Assembly: GCA_027073945.1 (NCBI GenBank)
Contig: JALTEL010000347.1
Coordinates: 1-7,499 of the forward strand
DNA length: 7,499 nt
Origin: Caldifarciminota bacterium
Lineage (GTDB): Bacteria > WOR-3 > Hydrothermia > UBA1063 > CAJXJZ01
Direction of reading: 5' to 3'
Below, in pieces: positions 1 to 7,499 of the stretch. The position numbers and the translations under genes are program-made. Below the pieces are notes generated by a model, which saw only the letters and a list, made by a program, of their open reading frames with translations, did not search any database and had not been told where the DNA came from. Numbering within the stretch: the first letter of the stretch is position 1; each line of letters starts with the position of its first letter.

Positions 1-752
1 TTTCTGAAAAAGGTGAAGAAGATTTCAATTTTAATGAAAAATTTGAAGAGTTTTGTTCAAGTGCTGGTATTGATGAAATACCAGATATAAATCAAGACCA
101 AAGAATTATAATTGTAGGTAGCAAATTAAGAGAGAAAATAGGCTCAGTTGCTTTGTGGTTAAGAGAACATAGCATTGACATCAAAATAATTGAAGTTTCT
201 CTTCTCAAAGATGGTGATAACCTATTTTTGTCACCACAAATAATCATTCCAATTCCAACAACTGAAAAATTTGAGATTGGCAAGCACGTATCAAGAAAAG
301 ACAGGCCGTGGCTAAGTAATGGTGAAGAGTGGCATCTAAATAAGAGATGTGGAAAGGAAATAAAAAATAAGCTAATTCAACTTAATAACATCATAAATGA
401 AAATTTCGAAAATATCGAGGGACCTAATTGGAATCAAAAATTCTATGTTTCCTTTAAAGAAGGAAATCATATCTGGATCTCTATTAACACACATAAGACT
501 ACTCTTGTTTCAAATATTTTCATTAAAAAGGGGGATATGGAGGTTGAAAGAATATCAGAAGATTTGGGTATTAAAATCTTTGATAAAGAATCATCTCTGT
601 CAGAAAAGTTACAATTGGAAAGCTCAGTGGAAATAACAAACAAAGGAGAGTATGATAGAGTCAGAATAAGAATTAAGGAAGAATTTGATCTCACGAATGA
701 TAAATTCTTAAACTTCCTGAGAGATTGTTATGACTCATTTAAGAAAGTATAA
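1..752 (+). CDS. Partial nuclease-associated protein (DUF91-like and DUF5655-like), 5' end missing
   Basis: The frame is open from base 3 with no stop, so the true start lies left of the window; 249 residues are visible. A TTG at 153 could serve as a start but would cut into a conserved-looking block, so I do not use it. Visible residues 34-92 (RIIIVGSKLREKIGSVALWL, then a segment ending IIIPIPTTEKFEI) match, from memory, the region seen in proteins with a PD-(D/E)XK/DUF91-type nuclease fold, where an ALWLR motif is followed by a basic and acidic beta-rich stretch. Residues about 108-249, with GEEWHLNKR near the front and FLRDCYDSF at the end, look like a DUF5655-type C-terminal domain. The catalytic residues, if any, would be upstream and cannot be checked. 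There is no membrane segment or signal. Such proteins often sit in defence or mobile regions, but function here is inference. The gene is followed by 331 bp without a gene. Confidence 0.72.
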   Translation, partial: SEKGEEDFNFNEKFEEFCSSAGIDEIPDINQDQRIIIVGSKLREKIGSVALWLREHSIDIKIIEVSLLKDGDNLFLSPQIIIPIPTTEKFEIGKHVSRKDRPWLSNGEEWHLNKRCGKEIKNKLIQLNNIINENFENIEGPNWNQKFYVSFKEGNHIWISINTHKTTLVSNIFIKKGDMEVERISEDLGIKIFDKESSLSEKLQLESSVEITNKGEYDRVRIRIKEEFDLTNDKFLNFLRDCYDSFKKV

Positions 753-771
753 TCCCGCCAGGCCTTTCTTC

Positions 772-788
772 GGAATGCTTCGCATTCC
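772..788. other. Perfect hairpin, 7-bp stem with 3-base loop
   Basis: GGAATGC at 772-778 pairs with GCATTCC at 782-788 around a TTC loop, 20 bases after the stop codon of the preceding gene. No run of T follows, so a classical intrinsic terminator is not supported. It may still protect the 3' end of the transcript or be part of a folded recombination site. Confidence 0.55.
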
Positions 789-822
789 TCGACCACATTG
801 TATTCTCGCTTCGCTCGGTGGC

Positions 823-891
823 ACATAACAGGCGGATATGCGGTTCGTTTTGCTTCGCTCCGCGAGCTTCAGACACGCCAACACGTTAGCC
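823..891 (+). repeat. Integron attC-like recombination site (candidate)
   Basis: ACATAAC at 823-829 resembles an R'' core site (consensus RYYYAAC, one mismatch) and GTTAGCC at 885-891 resembles an R' core site (GTTRRRY, one mismatch). TAAC pairs with GTTA. Just inside, GGCG (831-834) pairs with CGCC (876-879), with unequal spacers of one and five bases. The 69-base length falls in the usual attC range, and the interior carries the CTTCGCTC motif I associate with attC loops. The right part recurs at 7086-7125. The inner stem is weaker than in textbook sites, so this is a candidate, not a firm call. Another possibility is an unclassified intergenic palindromic repeat. Confidence 0.38.
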
Positions 892-1046
892 GTTGTCATC
901 ACTTGGGAACAGGGCATAGAACCCACATTTTACAAATACCAAAACTCCCTTTGACTACGGGATGATAAGAAAAAGAGAGAATAATTTTGCAAACCGTTTT
1001 CAAAGAATTCAGGGAACTTGACTTTTGCCTTACTTTGCCGTATACT
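852..1046 (+). repeat. 195-bp direct repeat, left copy (site plus promoter)
   Basis: It aligns without gaps to 7086-7280 (offset 6234) with about 16 mismatches by hand count, roughly 92% identity. The repeat starts in the GC-rich arm of the attC-like site, runs through the GTTAGCC core and an AT-rich stretch, and ends at the -10 box. Beyond TATACT the two copies diverge quickly. The pair brackets both lipoproteins and the three metabolic genes in direct orientation. Confidence 0.9.
1018..1046 (+). promoter_or_regulatory. Sigma70-type promoter, copy 1
   Basis: TTGACT (1018-1023) is followed by a 17-bp spacer and TATACT (1041-1046). The predicted transcription start, near 1053, lies about 30 bases ahead of the ATG at 1084. 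The near-consensus boxes and their recurrence in three other places ahead of genes make this a convincing promoter. Unlike the other copies, the conserved 5'UTR is missing here. The gene is instead reached through a short leader that ends in the same GAGGTAAAAT string. Confidence 0.8.
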
Positions 1047-1083
1047 TTCAGATACCAAACCGTAATAAATCCTGAGAGGTAAA

Positions 1084-2070
1084 ATGAAAAAATTAATAGC
1101 ATACATGATATTTACCATTACTATATTGCCTGTATCCTGTTATCAACCGGAGCATGACGCAACAAAGACAATAAGAAACGATAATGCAGTCCAACTTACC
1201 CACTCAAACAACGGTGAAAGCTCTCAAAACCCTGCATTTTCGCCGGATGGGAATTATATTGTATATTCAAGATTTATAAACGGCTATAATTCCTCTGTTT
1301 CTGAAATTGTAAAAATGAAAACAGACGGCTCAGACGAACAAATAATTGTCCCTGCAAATAACTCTGCAAATGTCAATGTGCCTTTCGGTTGCTGGGTGGG
1401 CGATAGAATATGCTTCGCCTCTGACCGCGCAGGACATGCTGATGAAATATGGACAGTAAACGACGACGGGACGAATCTAAAACAAATTACAACACATGAT
1501 GAAAGCACGGGCATTTATTACATAGAGCCTGTTTTTAATCCGCAGAACAATGAGCAGATTGTGTTTGAATATGTCACGGGTGAAAACGATAATACGGCAA
1601 TTCATCAAATTGCCTTTCTCAATGTTAGAAATGGCAAAGTTACATTGCTCACGGACGGCATCTACGATGACCGCCTGCCGAGCTGGAGCAATGGAGGCGA
1701 TAAAATTCTTTTACAGCGCAAACAGTACGGACAGGAGCATGGCTGGAAGGTCTATCTCGCATACATTGACACCCTCACAAAGAGCCTGTCCGACATTCAT
1801 ACCATAAATAATGAAAATATTGACCAGACAGATTGTTCGTGGTTTTATGACGATAATTATATTCTGACCTCCTCGTATTTTGATGGCTCAAACATACCCA
1901 ATATCTTTTTGTTGTCCGTTTCAGACGGAACTCCGATACGAATCACAAACACACCGACAAACGAAGACGGAGCACCTGCTTGCTCACCTGACGGTCAAAA
2001 AATCGCCTTTGAATCGCATCCGAGAGAAGATGAGGATTATCCGTCCGATATCTGGATAATCAATCGATAA
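1084..2070 (+). CDS. TolB-like beta-propeller lipoprotein (first copy)
   Basis: The product has 328 residues. A basic start (MKK) and hydrophobic stretch end in LPVSC, giving a probable lipidated Cys19; Pro at -3 is unusual for a lipobox. The mature part is built of WD40-like (PD40) repeats as in TolB. FSPDGNYIVYSR lies at 52-63, an EIWTVNDDGTNLKQIT blade at 121-136, PSWSNGGDKILL at 199-210, SWFYDDNYILTSS at 252-264, and SPDGQKIAFES with DIWIINR at the end, roughly six blades. No catalytic domain is fused, so a binding or scaffolding role at the envelope is likely, with ligand unknown. True TolB has an extra N-terminal domain that I do not see. GAGAGGT at 1074-1080 is the ribosome binding site, and the repeat promoter lies just upstream. 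A second, divergent protein of this type is at 5972. Confidence 0.85.
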   Translation: MKKLIAYMIFTITILPVSCYQPEHDATKTIRNDNAVQLTHSNNGESSQNPAFSPDGNYIVYSRFINGYNSSVSEIVKMKTDGSDEQIIVPANNSANVNVPFGCWVGDRICFASDRAGHADEIWTVNDDGTNLKQITTHDESTGIYYIEPVFNPQNNEQIVFEYVTGENDNTAIHQIAFLNVRNGKVTLLTDGIYDDRLPSWSNGGDKILLQRKQYGQEHGWKVYLAYIDTLTKSLSDIHTINNENIDQTDCSWFYDDNYILTSSYFDGSNIPNIFLLSVSDGTPIRITNTPTNEDGAPACSPDGQKIAFESHPREDEDYPSDIWIINR

Positions 2071-2168
2071 TACAATCTTCAATACCACTTTACTCTGAGA
2101 GAATGAACCTGCAAAAATCAAAGGTTTTGAAATAATATGATGACTTACTTAGGACTATTTCAGGAATG

Positions 2169-2280
2169 GCAATTTTTTCAAAAAGAGGACTTGACCTTTC
2201 CTTTTCTTAGCTATATACTATTAGATGCTGAATGTAGATAAATTTTGCTATGTATAAAAGGAGGTAAAATCCCTGTCGTG
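2169..2280 (+). repeat. 112-bp direct repeat with promoter and leader, left copy
   Basis: It matches 5819-5930 without gaps (offset 3650) with only two mismatches (2173/5823 and 2233/5883). The unit covers the bases just upstream of the -35 box, the promoter, the 5'UTR, the Shine-Dalgarno and a GTG. Similarity stops at both ends within a few bases. The near identity of noncoding DNA points to a recent duplication or ongoing gene conversion. Confidence 0.93.
2191..2219 (+). promoter_or_regulatory. Sigma70-type promoter, copy 2
   Basis: TTGACC (2191-2196), a 17-bp spacer and TATACT (2214-2219) precede a leader of about 50 bases holding a strong Shine-Dalgarno, AAGGAGGT, at 2258-2265. Twelve bases separate that site from the GTG at 2278, which is longer than usual. 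It probably drives the leader frame, the PLP enzyme and the DUF1611 gene, and perhaps the epimerase. Confidence 0.85.
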
Positions 2281-2394
2281 AGAGCCAAGTCTGGGAAAGA
2301 TAGCAAAGTTATAATCCGAGCGCCTTACAATCAGGTTAATGGCGAAACAGATTTAGTGTATATAATAGAATTAGATACAATTTTCGAATCATGA
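2278..2394 (+). pseudogene. 38-codon leader frame; probable recombinase N-terminal remnant
   Basis: GTG opens a frame ending in a TGA whose bases overlap the next ATG (ATGA, 2391-2394). The first 20 codons align without gaps to the frame at 7339; both contain a V-x-I-R-x-P-Y-N-Q pattern (VIIRAPYNQ here, VTIRLPYNQ there). From memory this matches the start of tyrosine recombinases whose N-terminus reads like LPYN..LI.KIK.I.GRRW. Here similarity ends after PYNQ, and the last 18 residues look unrelated. The downstream gene has no good ribosome binding site of its own, so the frame may serve as a translated leader that delivers ribosomes to it. It could also be a non-functional relic; the protein itself is unlikely to act as a recombinase. 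Confidence 0.5.
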
Positions 2395-3452
2395 ACATAC
2401 TCGACGGTATAAAAACAGCAAATATCAAAATCACAAAAGAGATTCAGAGGCTCAGTAATTTGGTCAAAGACAAATCAATTTCGTTAATTGACAGGGTTGA
2501 ATCTTTTGAAGATATCATAAGTATTGAAGTCGGAGATACTTCCTTGATTCGTTCACGTAATATAGAAAGAGAATTTGATATACACCAGCTTTACATTAAG
2601 TATGAAGGCGAAAATCCGACAGGAACCCATAAAGATAGAATCGCATTTGCACAGGTTCTGGATGCCCTGCGCAGGGAATTTTCCACTGTAGTTGCTGCCA
2701 CCTGCGGAAACTACGGAGTAGCCATATCCTATGCATCTTATCTGGCGGGTATGAAATGCAATATCTACATCCCGGAAAAATTCCATACTGAGCGCATCAA
2801 GGAAATGGAAAAATTCAATGCAAATATTATTCGGTTCAATGGCAGTTACGAGGACAGTGTTTATGAATCCAGCAGGCTGGCAGAAAAAAATGAATGGTAT
2901 GATGCAAACCCCGGGGGAGCAAACTCATCGCTTCAAATTGCGGCCTATTCCGAGATAGCAAACGAAATTTACGATGAACTTCACGATGCACCAAAATACG
3001 TGGCTTGCCCCGTGTCCAACGGGACTTTGCTGGCCGGTGTCGGCAGGGGCTTTGAAAAACTCTACAAAAGGGGAAAAACATCGAGAATCCCAATACTGAT
3101 TGCGGCGTCAGCTACCAAAAAGAATCCGATAATCACATCATTCAATGCAGGATTGTCCTATTGCAAGGACCTTAATCCGAAAAAGATAAAAGAGACAAAA
3201 ATCAATGAGCCCCTTATAAACTGGCACAGTTTCGACGGAGACGAGGCAATTTATGCCCTGCATCAAACCAAGGGCGCTGCCTACCATGTTTCTGACAAGA
3301 AAATGCGAGAAATGACCTCCTTTTTACATAAAAGGGATGGCTTACATGTATTACCGGCATCCACTGCCGGATTAGTGGCTCTTCTGGAACATCACGAAAA
3401 AGAAAATTTCCCCAATGACAGATTTGTAGCAATAATAACCGGGAAATATTGA
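2391..3452 (+). CDS. PLP-dependent threonine-synthase-like lyase (fold type II)
   Basis: The product has 353 residues and is a tryptophan-synthase-beta superfamily (fold type II) enzyme. Lys81 in NPTGTHKDR is the expected Schiff-base lysine. TCGNYGVA (104-111) is the substrate loop usually written SSGNxG, CPVSNGTLLAGVG (206-218) is the phosphate-binding glycine loop, LPASTAGLVAL (321-331) matches the EPSSAxxLAAL region, and ITGKY closes the chain. The family includes threonine synthase, cysteate synthase and diaminopropionate-type synthases. His80 in place of Phe (threonine synthases read GSFKD) recalls the GSHK of tryptophan synthase beta, so the reaction is not assigned. No signal peptide is seen; it is cytoplasmic. 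No Shine-Dalgarno precedes the ATG, but the ATGA overlap with the leader frame suggests coupled translation. The next gene follows after one base, so the two are surely co-transcribed. Confidence 0.85.
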   Translation: MNILDGIKTANIKITKEIQRLSNLVKDKSISLIDRVESFEDIISIEVGDTSLIRSRNIEREFDIHQLYIKYEGENPTGTHKDRIAFAQVLDALRREFSTVVAATCGNYGVAISYASYLAGMKCNIYIPEKFHTERIKEMEKFNANIIRFNGSYEDSVYESSRLAEKNEWYDANPGGANSSLQIAAYSEIANEIYDELHDAPKYVACPVSNGTLLAGVGRGFEKLYKRGKTSRIPILIAASATKKNPIITSFNAGLSYCKDLNPKKIKETKINEPLINWHSFDGDEAIYALHQTKGAAYHVSDKKMREMTSFLHKRDGLHVLPASTAGLVALLEHHEKENFPNDRFVAIITGKY

Positions 3453-3453
3453 G

Positions 3454-4527
3454 ATGAATAAGCAGCAAAAAATCGACGGCACAGCGCTGGTGTATGCCGA
3501 TAGAGCATTTAACACGCCTAACGGAAAAACTGCTCACGGACTGGTGCGCTTTACCGAGAGATACGACATTGCAGGTGTTATTGATAGCAGATATGCAGGC
3601 AGCGATGCAGGAATGGTTTTGGACAATAAAAATTACAATATTCCAATTTTTAAAAACCTTGAAATTGCTCTGTCTGCCACAAAAAGTAAAAAACCGAAAA
3701 CACTGGTTATCGGCCTTGCTCCCGATGGCGGACGACTGCCCAAAAAGGGATTAGATGTTGTAAAGCAAGCTCTTGAAGCAGGGTTGAATATAGACAGCGG
3801 TTTGCATGATTTCATCTCTGATAATGCCAAACTGATGGCAATAGCCCGAAAAAACGGCTGTCGCGTGAGGGACATCCGAAAAATGCCAGAGAGAAAAAAA
3901 CTTCATTTTTTTACCGGTGATATAGAAAAAGTGAAGTGCTTGAAAATAGCTGTGTTAGGCACGGATTCCGCAGTAGGGAAAAGGACAACGGCATGGATGA
4001 TTGTTCATGGTTTCAGAAAGATAGGATTAAAAGCAGAATTGGTGGGTACAGGACAAACCGCATGGATGCAGGGAGCTAAATATTCCATAATACTGGATAG
4101 CCTTATCAATGATTTTGTCTCAGGAGAAATAGAGCATGCCGTATATGAAGCGTGGAAAAACGAAAGGCCTGACATCATCGTGATTGAAGGACAAGGAAGC
4201 TTGATGAACCCTGCTTATCCCGGTGGATTCGAAATACTTGCCGCAGGCCGTCCCGATTTCATTATCATGCAGCATGCACCGAGGCGTCTTGAATATGACG
4301 GATTTCCCGGTTACAAACTGCATCCTATAAAGGAACAAATTAACGCTGTTGAGGTTATATCAAAGAAAAAAGTTATTGCCATTACAATTAATCATGAAAA
4401 TATGAAAGATTCTGAAATTATGGATGAATGCAAGAAATTAACAAAAGAGACAGGTCTCCCGTCTTATGATGTACTTAAATACGGTGCGGACGAATTGGTC
4501 TCACAATTGAAAAAACTGCTCAAATGA
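3454..4527 (+). CDS. DUF1611 family P-loop protein (DgcN-like N-acyltransferase)
   Basis: The 357-residue product matches the two-domain DUF1611 (COG3367) family. Its N-terminal Rossmann-like half contains GVIDSRYAG (41-49) and VIGLAPDGGRLP (85-96). The C-terminal P-loop half carries the Walker A-like GTDSAVGKRTT (169-179), then GTGQTAWMQG (198-207), DFVSGEIE (220-227) and IEGQGSL (244-250), all conserved-looking family landmarks. Characterised members (DgcN) N-acetylate D-glutamate, and the family is typically encoded beside enolase-superfamily epimerases, as here (the epimerase starts 115 bp downstream). It starts one base after the stop of the PLP gene (TGA-G-ATG), so termination-reinitiation coupling is likely. 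The length is normal and no truncation is seen. The cytoplasmic location and family are firm; the exact substrate is inference, since DUF1611 members may acylate or ligate other amino acids. Confidence 0.88.
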   Translation: MNKQQKIDGTALVYADRAFNTPNGKTAHGLVRFTERYDIAGVIDSRYAGSDAGMVLDNKNYNIPIFKNLEIALSATKSKKPKTLVIGLAPDGGRLPKKGLDVVKQALEAGLNIDSGLHDFISDNAKLMAIARKNGCRVRDIRKMPERKKLHFFTGDIEKVKCLKIAVLGTDSAVGKRTTAWMIVHGFRKIGLKAELVGTGQTAWMQGAKYSIILDSLINDFVSGEIEHAVYEAWKNERPDIIVIEGQGSLMNPAYPGGFEILAAGRPDFIIMQHAPRRLEYDGFPGYKLHPIKEQINAVEVISKKKVIAITINHENMKDSEIMDECKKLTKETGLPSYDVLKYGADELVSQLKKLLK

Positions 4528-4563
4528 TCAATAGGGATTCTAAACCACATGCGTGTGTTGAAT

Positions 4564-4606
4564 CAGCCGAAACTGGCAATATGAACTCATATAAAATCGC
4601 CGGCTG
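4564..4606. other. Nested hairpin in the gap before the epimerase gene
   Basis: CAGCCG (4564-4569) pairs with CGGCTG (4601-4606), and inside it ATATG (4579-4583) pairs with CATAT (4588-4592) around an AACT loop. It fills much of the 115-bp gap between the DUF1611 and epimerase genes. No T-run follows, so it is not an intrinsic terminator. An mRNA processing or stability element that sets the ratio of the two products is possible. The epimerase ATG at 4643 lacks a clear Shine-Dalgarno. Confidence 0.4.
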
Positions 4607-4642
4607 TGAATTACACCGACACAAACACTAAATAGCATCGTA

Positions 4643-5707
4643 ATGAAAATACAATCTATAGAGTATTTCACTGTTGAAATGCCGCTTGCAAGTCCTTATA
4701 CTATTGCATACGAAACAGTTGATAGGGCAGTAAATGTAATTTTAAAAATCACTACCAATACCGGTCTAACAGGATGGGGTTGCGCTGCTCCTGACAGGGA
4801 GGTTACAAAAGAAACACCCGAAATAGTTTTAGACAATTTCAAGAATATTATAGAGCCATTGCTTTTAGGGGAAAACCCGTTTCAGTTAGTCAGATTCTTG
4901 GAAACACTTAAGGCAGAGTTACATGGAAATTCCTCAACCAAAGCTGCTGTGGATATGGCTTTACTGGACTTAACGGCAAGAAAAGCAAAATTACCTCTAT
5001 ACAGCTTACTCGGCGGATGCAAGCAATACATACCGACCAGTATCACTATCGGCATTAAAACATTGAAGGAGACCCTTAAACAAACCGGTCATTATCTCAA
5101 AAAGGGGTTCAATATCATAAAATTGAAAGGCGGATTGAATTTGGACGAGGACGTGGAAAAGATAATACAAATGCGTGAAAAATACGGATACGATTTTAAG
5201 CTTCGATTTGATGCCAATCAGGGATATAGCCTTGAGCAATCCATTGAATTTGTGAAAAGAACAAAGGATGCAAATATTGAAATTTTTGAACAGCCTACTA
5301 AGGCAAACAACTATAATTTACTCGGAAAAGTTACTCAAAATGTTGATATCTCCGTGATGGCTGACGAAAGCATGAAAACCTTAAAAGATGCCTTTAAACT
5401 TGTATCTAATGAACTTATTGATATGATTAACATCAAAATTATGAAAGTTGGTGGAATTATGGAAGCTCAACATATTAATTCACTCGCTCGTGCAGCAGGC
5501 AATGAAGTAATGGTGGGTTGTCTGGACGAATCTGCACTTGGTATTTCTGCAGGCCTTCATTTTGCCCTAAGCCGCATTAATATTGAATACGCTGATCTGG
5601 ACGGATACATGGAGCTACTCGAAGACCCCTTTAAAAACTTGTTTAAATTAAAAAACGGTATATTATACCCGGATAAAAGTCCCGGATTGGGAAAAATTAA
5701 ACTGTAG
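4643..5707 (+). CDS. Dipeptide epimerase, enolase superfamily (DgcA-like)
   Basis: The 354-residue product belongs to the muconate-lactonizing subgroup of the enolase superfamily. The N-terminal capping domain spans about 1-125. In the barrel, the KxK pair is K160/K162 (IKLKGG), the metal ligands are D190 (RFDANQGY), E216 (FEQP) and D241 (ADES), and the opposing lysine is K268 (IKIMKVGG). The late-strand D295 (GCLDES) and DLDG at 318-321 supply the D-x-D pair that holds the substrate amino group in L-Ala-D/L-Glu-type epimerases. All catalytic residues are present, so it should be active. The expected reaction is epimerisation of a dipeptide or, with the DUF1611 partner, racemisation of an N-acyl amino acid such as N-acetyl-D-glutamate (DgcA). 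No signal peptide is seen, so it is cytoplasmic. No repeat promoter precedes it; it is probably read from copy 2. The specificity within the family is not certain. Confidence 0.9.
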   Translation: MKIQSIEYFTVEMPLASPYTIAYETVDRAVNVILKITTNTGLTGWGCAAPDREVTKETPEIVLDNFKNIIEPLLLGENPFQLVRFLETLKAELHGNSSTKAAVDMALLDLTARKAKLPLYSLLGGCKQYIPTSITIGIKTLKETLKQTGHYLKKGFNIIKLKGGLNLDEDVEKIIQMREKYGYDFKLRFDANQGYSLEQSIEFVKRTKDANIEIFEQPTKANNYNLLGKVTQNVDISVMADESMKTLKDAFKLVSNELIDMINIKIMKVGGIMEAQHINSLARAAGNEVMVGCLDESALGISAGLHFALSRINIEYADLDGYMELLEDPFKNLFKLKNGILYPDKSPGLGKIKL

Positions 5708-5818
5708 CTGAAAATGGCTGTATGTAATGCGGGCGCGGTGATTTTAAAATCCTGTCTCAGCATAGCTCTTCATCACACTGAAATAAAGAATAAAACTACT
5801 AATACACACAAGAAAACA
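5708..5818. other. Short spacer without an assigned feature
   Basis: After the epimerase stop I see only a 12-base palindrome, GATTTTAAAATC (5740-5751), and AT-rich sequence up to the promoter repeat. No convincing terminator is visible, so read-through into the second lipoprotein gene cannot be excluded. Confidence 0.5.
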
Positions 5819-5930
5819 GCAAATTTTTCAAAAAGAGGACTTGACCTTTCCTTTTCTTAGCTATATACTATTAGATGCTGAAAGTAGATAAATTTTGCTA
5901 TGTATAAAAGGAGGTAAAATCCCTGTCGTG
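5819..5930 (+). repeat. 112-bp direct repeat with promoter and leader, right copy
   Basis: This is the partner of 2169-2280, with two mismatches over 112 bases. After the shared GTG (5928-5930) the sequence differs completely from the left copy: no recombinase-like frame continues, and a hairpin and a new ribosome binding site lead to the lipoprotein gene at 5972. Confidence 0.93.
5841..5869 (+). promoter_or_regulatory. Sigma70-type promoter, copy 3
   Basis: TTGACC (5841-5846), a 17-bp spacer and TATACT (5864-5869) form the same promoter as copy 2. The transcript would carry two potential initiation regions: the inherited AAGGAGGT (5908-5915) with the GTG at 5928, and AAGGTGG (5960-5966) serving the ATG at 5972. 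A frame from the GTG runs to a TGA at 6024-6026, out of phase with and overlapping the lipoprotein gene. Confidence 0.85.
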
Positions 5931-5958
5931 TGGGATGAATTATGTATCAATTCCCACA
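5929..5958 (+). promoter_or_regulatory. Hairpin just upstream of the ribosome binding site of the second lipoprotein
   Basis: TGTGGGA (5929-5935) pairs with TCCCACA (5952-5958) and TGA (5936-5938) with TCA (5947-5949), leaving a two-base bulge and an eight-base loop. The stem begins exactly where the repeat ends and stops two bases before the AAGGTGG at 5960. It would cover the inherited GTG and could insulate the downstream start from the inherited one. A regulatory role is inference. Confidence 0.5.
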
Positions 5959-5971
5959 TAAGGTGGTTTAA

Positions 5972-7030
5972 ATGTATAATGGAAAAAAATTGCCTGCTGT
6001 GCTTCTTGCGGGTCTTGTTCTTCTGATAGTAGCAATAACCTCAGGTTGCTTGAATAAGCATACAGAAGAGCCACAACAAGTTCTCCATCCCCTACCTTCA
6101 TCAGCAAAGATACTCTTCGTATCAAATATGGATACACATACACGTGCAAAGGAAATTTATTCAATGGATGAAAATGGGAGTGATGTTACACGTATTACTT
6201 ACTCTCAATATCATCATAGGCTGGTTGGCATAGATAAAACAAAAAGATACATTGTGACTACCCGTGTTGATAAAGATACTGACCCTCCTGCAGGGCTTGG
6301 TGACGAGGACAGGAAAAGTCTGTGGATTTTAGACCTTGAAACAGGGAACGAGAAAAGGCTGACTGACCCTGACAACAATGCGGAAGGCGATAGTTTCTCT
6401 CCTGATGGGGAATGGATTGTGTTCCACATGGTCCTTAAAGGAGAAAATCAGGCAGATATATACAAAATTAGAAAAGACGGAACTGATTTAATCAGGCTCA
6501 CCTACACAGAGGATGCTACGGAATCCGATCCTGCATGGTCCAGTGACGGAAAATACATTGCTTTTGTCTCATATAGCGCTAACGTAAGCAGATTTGTCCT
6601 TAAGATTATGAATACCGACGGAACAAACATACGGACTGTATACGATTGTAATGACAACATATCAACACCGTATTTCAAACCAGGAGTTTATGATCCATCG
6701 TGGAGTCCCGATGATAACTGGATTGTTTTCGAAAAGCCAATGCATTATGGTGGTGAAAACGGAGATGCAGGTATATGGCATATATTCAAAATTCATCCGG
6801 ATAGTTCTGGTCTTATTGATTTGAGTGAGAATGGAGGGCATACAGATATGGCGGAGTATCTTCCATCTTTTTCTGGGGATGGTGAATATATAATATTCAG
6901 TGCAAGATATGGCTCATCTGATCCGGGTAATGTGCAGATTGACCTATTTAAAATGGATAAAAATGGAGGTGCTGTTACAAAGCTCACCGATTTGAGCAGC
7001 ATTGAGGATTTCGGAGTGTGGATAAAATGA
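5972..7030 (+). CDS. TolB-like beta-propeller lipoprotein (second copy)
   Basis: The product has 352 residues. A basic start and a hydrophobic segment (about residues 8-23) end in ITSGC, so Cys26 is the likely lipidation site. PD40 repeats follow: SFSPDGEWIVF (141-151), PAWSSDGKYIAF (187-198), PSWSPDDNWIVF (242-253) and PSFSGDGEYIIF (298-309), linked by segments of the IYKIRKDGTDLIRLT type (163-177), giving a propeller of about six blades. It should be anchored in the envelope facing the periplasm and bind a partner or ligand that I cannot name. It shares architecture, though little exact sequence, with the lipoprotein at 1084, and both are driven by members of the same promoter family on either side of the enzyme operon. 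AAGGTGG at 5960-5966 is the ribosome binding site. The stop is followed at once by hairpins and the second attC-like region. Confidence 0.87.
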   Translation: MYNGKKLPAVLLAGLVLLIVAITSGCLNKHTEEPQQVLHPLPSSAKILFVSNMDTHTRAKEIYSMDENGSDVTRITYSQYHHRLVGIDKTKRYIVTTRVDKDTDPPAGLGDEDRKSLWILDLETGNEKRLTDPDNNAEGDSFSPDGEWIVFHMVLKGENQADIYKIRKDGTDLIRLTYTEDATESDPAWSSDGKYIAFVSYSANVSRFVLKIMNTDGTNIRTVYDCNDNISTPYFKPGVYDPSWSPDDNWIVFEKPMHYGGENGDAGIWHIFKIHPDSSGLIDLSENGGHTDMAEYLPSFSGDGEYIIFSARYGSSDPGNVQIDLFKMDKNGGAVTKLTDLSSIEDFGVWIK

Positions 7031-7125
7031 CACTAAGCAGGGTTGGGCACTCTGCGGTGCTTTGCACCTTGCCCAAATCTGCTCCGCTTCGCTCCGCGAA
7101 CTTCGGACACGCCAACACGTTAGCC
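7031..7125 (+). repeat. Second attC-like site with large folded arms (candidate)
   Basis: GTTAGCC at 7119-7125 and the bases around it are the same as in the site ending at 891. On the left arm CTAA (7033-7036) can pair with TTAG (7120-7123) and GTTGG (7042-7046) with CCAAC (7112-7116); outside these, ATGACA (7027-7032) pairs with TGTCAT (7128-7133). The left arm differs from the first site, as expected if each cassette brings its own R''/L'' half. The R'' core here (around CTAAG) fits the consensus less well than at 823. The left arm overlaps no gene except the last bases of the lipoprotein stop region. Confidence 0.33.
7043..7076. other. Two-tier hairpin after the second lipoprotein gene
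   Basis: TTGGGCA (7043-7049) pairs with TGCCCAA (7070-7076), and inside it GGTGC (7056-7060) pairs with GCACC (7064-7068) around TTT. The interior is asymmetric, with six unpaired bases on the left and one on the right. No T-run follows, so it is not a standard intrinsic terminator, though it could still protect the 3' end. Extra-helical bases of this sort are also typical of attC arms. Confidence 0.55.
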
Positions 7126-7280
7126 GTTGTCATCACTTGGGAACAGGACATAGAACCCACATTTTACAAATACCAAAACTCCCTTTGTCTACGGGATGTT
7201 AAGAAAAAAAGAGAATAATTTTCCAAACCGTTTTCAAGGAATTTAAGGAACTTGATTTTTCATTTTCTTTGCCATATACT
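7086..7280 (+). repeat. 195-bp direct repeat, right copy (site plus promoter)
   Basis: This is the partner of 852-1046, about 92% identical and gap-free. Unlike the left copy, it continues past the -10 box into the conserved 5'UTR and GTG seen at 2214-2280, so it joins both repeat families in one stretch and probably represents the most complete version. Confidence 0.9.
7252..7280 (+). promoter_or_regulatory. Sigma70-type promoter, copy 4
   Basis: TTGATT (7252-7257), a 17-bp spacer and TATACT (7275-7280) are followed by AAGGAGGT at 7319-7326. From the -10 box to the GTG at 7339-7341, 67 bases align gap-free to copy 2 with about six differences, four of them in the stretch between the Shine-Dalgarno and the GTG. 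Confidence 0.82.
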
Positions 7281-7338
7281 ATTAGATGCTTAATGTAGAT
7301 GAATTTTGCTATGTATAAAAGGAGGTAAAGTCCCCGCT

Positions 7339-7479
7339 GTGAAAGTTGAATTTGGAGGAAATAACAGAGTTACAATCCGACTTCCTTATAATCAGGCATT
7401 GATAAGGAAGATAAAAACGATTTCCGGCAGAAGACAGAATCCTTTAGATAATTCAAAAACGGGAGAGGATAATGAGTAA
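7339..7479 (+). pseudogene. 46-codon leader frame; longer recombinase N-terminal remnant
   Basis: The frame starts with the conserved GTG and reads RVTIRLPYNQALIRKIKTIS followed by GRR, then departs into NPLDNSKTGEDNE and stops. From memory, tyrosine recombinases of the LPYNPELI.KIKTI.GRRW type begin in this way and continue with a Trp-containing segment before the SAM-like and catalytic domains, all of which are absent here. The frame is therefore a truncated remnant or a reused leader. Its stop (7477-7479) lies eight bases inside the next gene, whose ATG at 7472 has its own purine-rich site. The lack of gaps against the leader at 2278, with many third-position changes, suggests past selection on a protein. 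Confidence 0.5.
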
Positions 7480-7499
7480 AGATAAAAAAGAGCAGCTAC
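7472..7499 (+). CDS. Start of an unidentified gene, cut by the window edge
   Basis: ATG at 7472 opens a frame reading MSKDKKEQL to the end of the window. A purine-rich GGGAGAGGA at 7461-7469 lies just upstream, and the start overlaps the end of the leader frame by eight bases, as the gene at 2391 overlaps its leader. Nothing can be said about function from nine residues. Confidence 0.5.

Follow-up and report, generated by a model that had tools for sequence, protein, structure and literature searches.

Why would several different genes, lying side by side on one contig, be preceded by much the same promoter DNA? The question is raised by contig JALTEL010000347.1 of a Caldifarciminota bacterium (assembly GCA_027073945.1), of which the forward-strand stretch from position 1 to 7,499 was analysed here in full (the window). 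A sequence-only reading of this DNA had seen four TTGAnn-17-TATACT promoters, each ahead of a different gene or operon, and proposed a mobile or copied expression module for captured genes. Our analysis indicates that the four promoter-bearing repeats, called c1 to c4 below (Table 1), are probably the front ends of decayed genes for tyrosine integrases with a helix-turn-helix (HTH) domain, and that their promoter has probably been captured by the genes downstream.

Four related promoters in the window

The four sites (1018, 2191, 5841 and 7252) are indeed present on the plus strand, one per repeat copy, and the DNA around them is homologous, with pairwise matches well above chance (E from 6e-66 to 2e-4). 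Hexamers alone are not unusual here, as the window has 24 promoter-like pairs against 21.4 expected. The identity of 90-98% given for the promoter DNA did not survive; the range across copies is 69-98%, and only the pair c2/c3 exceeds 90% (98% over 112 nt, E 3e-40). The other pairs are c1/c4 (87% over about 233 nt, E 6e-66), c3/c4 (84% over 103 nt, E 3e-24), c2/c4 (81% over 147 nt, E 7e-33), and c1 with c2 or c3 (merely 69% over 75 nt, E 2e-4). The fullest copy is c4, which resembles c1 in its left portion and c2 and c3 in its right portion. Comparison of the window with Rfam gave two matches, far under their gathering scores and taken as chance.

That the promoters stand ahead of different genes or operons holds for c1, c2 and c3, while c4 leads into an integrase remnant and then into a gene truncated by the window end. 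Both c1 and c3 precede TolB-like genes, as would be expected if the promoters were alike simply because the genes behind them are paralogues. The two TolB-like proteins, however, have a mutual identity of merely 28% over 199 aa, so the likeness of the promoters is not due to recent gene duplication, and c2, the near-twin of c3, precedes an unrelated operon that starts with a gene for a pyridoxal phosphate (PLP)-dependent enzyme. These identities largely refute gene duplication, which we regard as highly improbable.

Table 1. Repeat copies, genes and attC-like sites in the window (ORF, open reading frame; SD, Shine-Dalgarno sequence; R1, promoter model described in the text).
Feature	Positions	Strand	Description	Basis
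attC-like site 1	824-891	+	upstream of c1 (ATAAC...CGCCAACACGTTAGCC)	pairing p 0.021
c1	852-1084	+	leader and promoter (TTGACT 1018-1023, TATACT 1041-1046), SD GAGAGG 1074-1079	87% to c4 over 233 nt; R1 63.9 bits at 997-1084
TolB-like gene	1084-2070	+	beta-propeller (PD40 repeats), directly after c1; start lipoprotein-like by eye	domain search
c2	2169-2335	+	promoter 2191-2219, AGGAGG 2259-2264, then integrase N-terminal codons (GKIPVVRAKSGKDSKVIIRAPYNQ)	matches to c3, c4, G696; R1 91.8 bits
Leader ORF	2245-2394	+	49 codons with integrase remnant; stop overlaps PLP start codon (ATGA)	sequence
PLP gene	2391-3452	+	PLP-dependent, threonine-synthase-like; first in operon after c2	domain search
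DUF1611 gene	3454-4527	+	DgcN-like, under cut-off of DgcN model	domain search
MR_MLE gene	4643-5707	+	nearest NCBIfam model L-Ala-D/L-Glu epimerase, under its cut-off	domain search
c3	5819-5930	+	promoter 5841-5869, AGGAGG 5909-5914, integrase-derived codons as far as GTCGTG	98% to c2; R1 91.6 bits
Second TolB-like gene	5972-7030	+	after c3	domain search
attC-like site 2	7086-7125	+	similar 3' half-site upstream of c4, without convincing 5' half	shared repeat; pairing test
c4	7086-7325 (whole repeat 7086-7396)	+	leader, promoter 7252-7280, AGGAGG 7320-7325	87% to c1; R1 80.3 bits at 7231-7325
57-codon ORF	7306-7479	+	interior-less integrase; N-part to ISGRR, joined near AATCC to C-terminal tail NPLDN...	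P0121, G696 and G733 matches
Gene start	7472-7499	+	MSKDKKEQL..., truncated by window end	like start (MSKEKKEQL) behind integrase wreck in G733 (L177)

An integrase gene as the probable source of the repeats

Judged by its translation, the 57-codon ORF of c4 is a remnant of an integrase gene. It matches a tyrosine recombinase of 388 aa (P0121; 80% identity over 70% of the query, E 7e-12) and another of 380 aa (P0122; 73%), the sole two candidates found, both with PF13495 and PF00589 domains. Homology of the coding part to tyrosine recombinases is thus present; the catalytic domain is absent from the ORF, which has N- and C-terminal pieces only.

The link between this remnant and the promoters comes from an HTH-integrase gene in another genome (G696), 78% identical to P0121 until similarity stops at query residue 286, where a stop codon follows. 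Its codons match window 7323-7442 in c4 at 82% DNA identity (E 5e-26) and those of c2 at 72%. The DNA 5' of the gene resembles window 2171-2268 in c2 (72%, E 1e-9) and window 5804-5918 in c3 (69%, E 4e-10), and an alignment of c1-c4 with G696 has 40 invariant columns out of 117. Between c1 and the other three copies the hexamer bases agree at 11 of 12 positions and the remainder of the module at 0.64-0.66, and between the window copies and G696 at 9-10 of 12 and 0.59-0.73; c4 compared with c2 or c3 has no hexamer excess (10/12 vs 0.87 and 0.86).

The G696 gene also bears on the supposed leader. Its start region consists of a plausible SD, an ATG, an HTH_17 domain (PF12728) and the codons GKIP; in c2, c3 and c4 the HTH codons are absent relative to G696, and the SD abuts GK(I/V)P. 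The 5' untranslated region (UTR) and SD that the module was said to give to captured genes are therefore the counterpart of the region where an HTH-integrase gene starts. Supply of an SD stands for c1, where GAGAGG ends 4 nt 5' of the ATG at 1084 and fits its gene. It fails for c2, c3 and c4, whose AGGAGG is equivalent to the SD of the integrase gene and precedes the next full gene's ATG by 126, 57 and 146 nt, respectively. A derivation of this SD from decayed HTH coding sequence was dropped, given the plausible SD at the same place in G696.

Related promoters in other genomes

A sequence-only promoter model, R1, was built from c1-c4 and G696. Among 33 sources it picked up all four window copies, G696 (twice, at the same place in L132 and L114) and one extra weak match (L124, 12.7 bits, E 0.029). 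At a threshold of 0.01 it matched 2 of 39 genomes in the order of G696, namely G696 itself and G911 (22.5 bits), in which no HTH was seen behind the match in the forward frames inspected. At 0.001, R1 found 12 places in 9 of the 395 genomes of the G696 phylum, a count that is a lower bound because only 10 candidates per genome were scored and the filters were strict. The closeness of these relatives hints that the window itself may come from that phylum.

Ten of these 12 places lead into an HTH_17 excisionase-like gene, an HTH-integrase fusion, or remnants of them. The HTH frame is unbroken at six, as an integrase fusion (G696), as a fusion to an integrase wreck (G766a), or as small stand-alone genes (G766b, G713, G795, G697a), and broken at four (G697b, G733, G682a, G682b). 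The expectation that the core would not be confined to the upstream region of one gene family was thus largely contradicted. Other genes follow some of the places: a restriction-modification system in G766a, an ATPase in G697b whose BrxC/D match is weak and under the cut-off, and RadC with a UvrD-type helicase in G787.

These places bear directly on the idea of a dedicated module that copies itself before genes and gives them promoter, 5'UTR and SD, a 'putative mobile promoter'. Such a module would fit the four copies, each ahead of a different transcription unit and facing the same way as its genes, as well as the non-HTH gene after the G787 place and the other genes after the wrecks in G766a and G697b. 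We nevertheless find it unlikely, as the related places belong overwhelmingly to one gene family, the SD is misplaced for 3 of the 4 window genes, the copies end differently and have no fixed element boundary, and the core is absent, as an exact 20-mer, from genome_contigs and viral_contigs (0 matches). What stands of the proposal is a promoter repeat of mobile origin before different genes; what does not is the purpose-built module. The promoter is indeed reused; its source is a single gene family, and most likely integrase decay left it behind.

At three of the 12 places (G696, G766a and G697b) a tRNA-Asn gene lies ahead of the R1 match in the same orientation, with 131-145 nt between its 3' end and the start of the match. 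The tRNA end overlaps a core, AGCCAT-N4-ATGGCT, and the G713 contig begins at the same core. This layout of tRNA-Asn, core and promoter may represent the left end of elements integrated at tRNA-Asn. Upstream of c1 and c4 no corresponding element head was found; of six pairwise tests one was suggestive (c1-G696, p 0.002; the other five p 0.07-0.16), but a five-sequence profile gave nothing.

Two contigs carry promoter-HTH heads in inverted, inward-facing pairs. In L172 (5176-5546 and 10320-9950) the heads are 4.7 kb apart, and the first genes inside are a methylase and Tsp45I-type restriction pair. In L176 (5799-5945 and 13756-13612) they are 7.9 kb apart, and the first gene inside encodes an ATPase with a weak BrxC/D match.

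The integrases themselves are found more widely at lower similarity. In the phylum of G001 (a Cloacimonadales metagenome-assembled genome, MAG), 22 of 124 genomes have integrase matches at 1e-60, with about 35-50% identity to P0121 in the contigs compared, and none of 17 contigs has the R1 promoter. Eight genomes of this phylum (G076, G081, G082, G083, G096, G104, G108 and G110) have related integrases as tandem pairs about 0.16-0.5 kb apart. At 1e-100, matches occur in 5 of 247 genomes in the phylum of G003 (a Desulfobacula MAG), G696 among them, and in none of 52 and 118 genomes in the phyla of G004 (a SAR324 MAG) and G010, respectively; at 1e-120, G696 stands alone among the 55 genomes of its class. 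In viral contigs, 95 pattern matches to the integrases yielded no confirmed case. The DNA of c4 has no match among plasmids, its ORF has three chance-level plasmid records and none among phages, and the leader ORFs of c2 and c4 found no candidate in the protein database.

A proposed route from integrase gene to bare promoter

Several of the related places can be arranged as a series of increasing loss. G766a lacks the middle of the integrase but retains the HTH and part of the C-terminus; the genes that follow encode a DNA methylase and a restriction enzyme of the Tsp45I type. G697b keeps a cut HTH. In G733 the HTH is broken, pieces from the N- and C-terminal ends of the integrase remain, and the next ORF begins with MSKEKKEQL. 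In c4, the N-terminal piece runs to ISGRR, continues with NPLDNSKTGEDNE and a stop, and is followed by MSKDKKEQL; its tail is identical to G733 at 49 of 59 nt, and the next gene matches G733 as well. Copies c2 and c3 end earlier in the integrase codons than c4 does, and c1 ends at the SD. The stages thus appear to include an HTH-integrase head, an interior-deleted integrase, and a promoter only. Since P0121 reads Asn-Pro on both sides of the join, the integrase interior of c4 was likely lost by deletion at a short AATCC-like repeat.

In the mechanism that we propose, each copy would be the front end (promoter, leader, SD and, in c2-c4, some codons) of the HTH-tyrosine-integrase gene of an integrative element. 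Repeated insertion or duplication, then deletion, would have made the four copies. Because the deletions would have taken out the HTH codons along with the greater part or the whole of the integrase, the sigma-70-type integrase promoter would now read into whatever lies downstream, and the promoters are predicted to be active and to drive those genes. To its TolB-like gene c1 would also hand a correctly spaced SD. The 49-codon leader behind c2 ends in an ATGA that also holds the PLP start codon, which would permit coupling. Copies c2 and c3 are 98% direct repeats 3,650 nt apart that flank the PLP-DUF1611-epimerase operon; the operon may therefore owe its presence to recombination at this repeat or to the repeat's duplication, and its later loss through recombination in the repeat is likewise plausible.

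The window looks like a fair example of promoters left behind by mobile DNA. If they are active, one could trace here how such DNA comes to rewire the expression of neighbouring genes. A broader proposal, which we regard as doubtful, is that the excisionase/integrase head of this element family routinely decays by internal deletion and so hands its promoter to defence and metabolic cargo. The element would then cease to move and its cargo gain expression in a single event, and the inward-facing paired heads around the G766 restriction-modification pair and the G697 ATPase operon would be a stage of the same process.

Evidence against an integrase origin

A number of observations weigh against deriving the four copies from decayed integrase genes. 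The window has no full-length integrase, no tRNA gene and no recognizable element head (tRNA end, core and following stretch), for which the five-sequence profile scores 0.8 bits at best against up to 5.9 in shuffled sequences. Because c1 keeps no integrase codons, its tie to the integrase goes through the promoter region and c4. Behind c1, c2 and c3 an integrase 3' end is not apparent (p 0.08-0.80). Counts of replacement to silent codon differences are small (11:8 over 40 codons for c4/G696, 10:6 over 25 for c2/G696, 13:3 over 25 for c2/c4) and do not separate constraint from free drift. Among the five genomes with integrase matches at 1e-100, a plain DNA search gave a strong match in G696 only, and short matches or none in the other four. 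Two of the 12 R1 places have no HTH, namely G787 (41.8 bits) and G1082 (21.9 bits), the latter probably a chance match. Finally, the -10 hexamer in G696 is TGTATT, and by eye it differs in most other relatives too.

The integron alternative

Integron cassettes, each with its own promoter, would be another way to place similar DNA before different genes, with the copies as leaders common to the cassettes and placed after attC sites. That cassettes lacking an ORF can have promoter activity has been published (part of PMC6557892). Both c1 and c4 start right behind a common CGCCAACACGTTAGCC half-site, and site 1 pairs as an attC should (p 0.021) and is close in length to the T. denticola attC sites, put at 63-68 bp in part of PMC3607928. 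Repeats with a similar 3' end occur in L102, a contig with a related integrase. Other observations speak against an integron. Site 2 has no 5' partner, or a poor one at p 0.09. When folded as DNA, site 1 forms no hairpin (z +1.6) and site 2 a local one at most (z -2.1), and copies c2 and c3 lack a half-site of this kind. The related integrases fall under the integron-integrase cut-off of TIGR02249 (211 and 225 vs 265) and are above that of NF040815. Searches with the half-site motif were uninformative: its 15-mer was found in none of 124 and 82 genomes, and in 20 viral stretches of which none has a BLAST match to the window at 1e-3; its 19-mer was in no viral contig and none of 395 genomes; and against plasmids and phages the half-sites gave one chance match. 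The pairing test has little power, as only one of the four L102 repeats passed it, at p 0.03. Taken together, an integron is quite improbable as the source of the copies.

The L102 repeats (G129:C141, 106-231, 1505-1625, 4043-4163 and 4871-4995) are four attC-like sequences, 79-86% identical, whose bottom strands fold with z from -0.4 to -3.2; a XerA-like integrase lies upstream of them, and the genes beside them are on the same strand. L102 is possibly a cassette array run by a non-IntI recombinase.

Comparison with known systems

Putative mobile promoters are nearly identical promoter-bearing repeats before non-homologous genes; they, and promoter propagation, were reportedly treated by Matus-Garcia et al. 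2012 and van Passel et al. 2014. Our case is alike in that non-homologous genes of one genome stretch have similar promoter DNA in front of them; near-identity is limited to c2/c3 (98%; the PLP operon and the second TolB-like gene), the other pairs being at 69-87%. The difference is that the source gene, an HTH-integrase, can be named here and most relatives found still sit on that gene; this would open the origin of 'mobile promoters' to a direct test.

For silent transferred genes, promoter capture has been described, brought about by deletion or tandem duplication (part of PMC11111574). There too, as that part of the article has it, intervening DNA is removed and a promoter is brought to a downstream gene; here, in contrast, the donor would be the integrase promoter of a mobile element, with derivatives in several places. 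Insertion sequences have outward-directed promoters (part of PMC9208149), and mobile DNA likewise gives promoters to its neighbours; as far as that source goes, the difference is a tyrosine-integrase/excisionase head in our case rather than the end of a transposase insertion sequence.

Genomic islands integrated at tRNA genes are a further comparison. The heads in G696, G766 and G697, just past tRNA-Asn and encoding HTH_17 with or without an integrase, resemble them, whereas the window has no tRNA, core or full integrase. In the literature searched we found no report of a reused promoter derived from an integrase gene, which is not to deny that one exists.

Genes behind the copies

The PLP, DUF1611 and epimerase-like proteins have relatives at 54-73% identity in the best 25 loci. 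Loci of Bacteroidota, Calditrichota, SAR324 and Desulfobacula contain relatives of the operon (2391-5707). An interval of about 2.3-2.6 kb separates the DUF1611 and epimerase genes in 15 of the best 25 relative loci, a segment missing in the window. At the left end of the window (3-752, plus strand), the C-terminal part of a protein without a Pfam match corresponds to the PADLOC candidate defence family PDC-S11 (E 6e-18).

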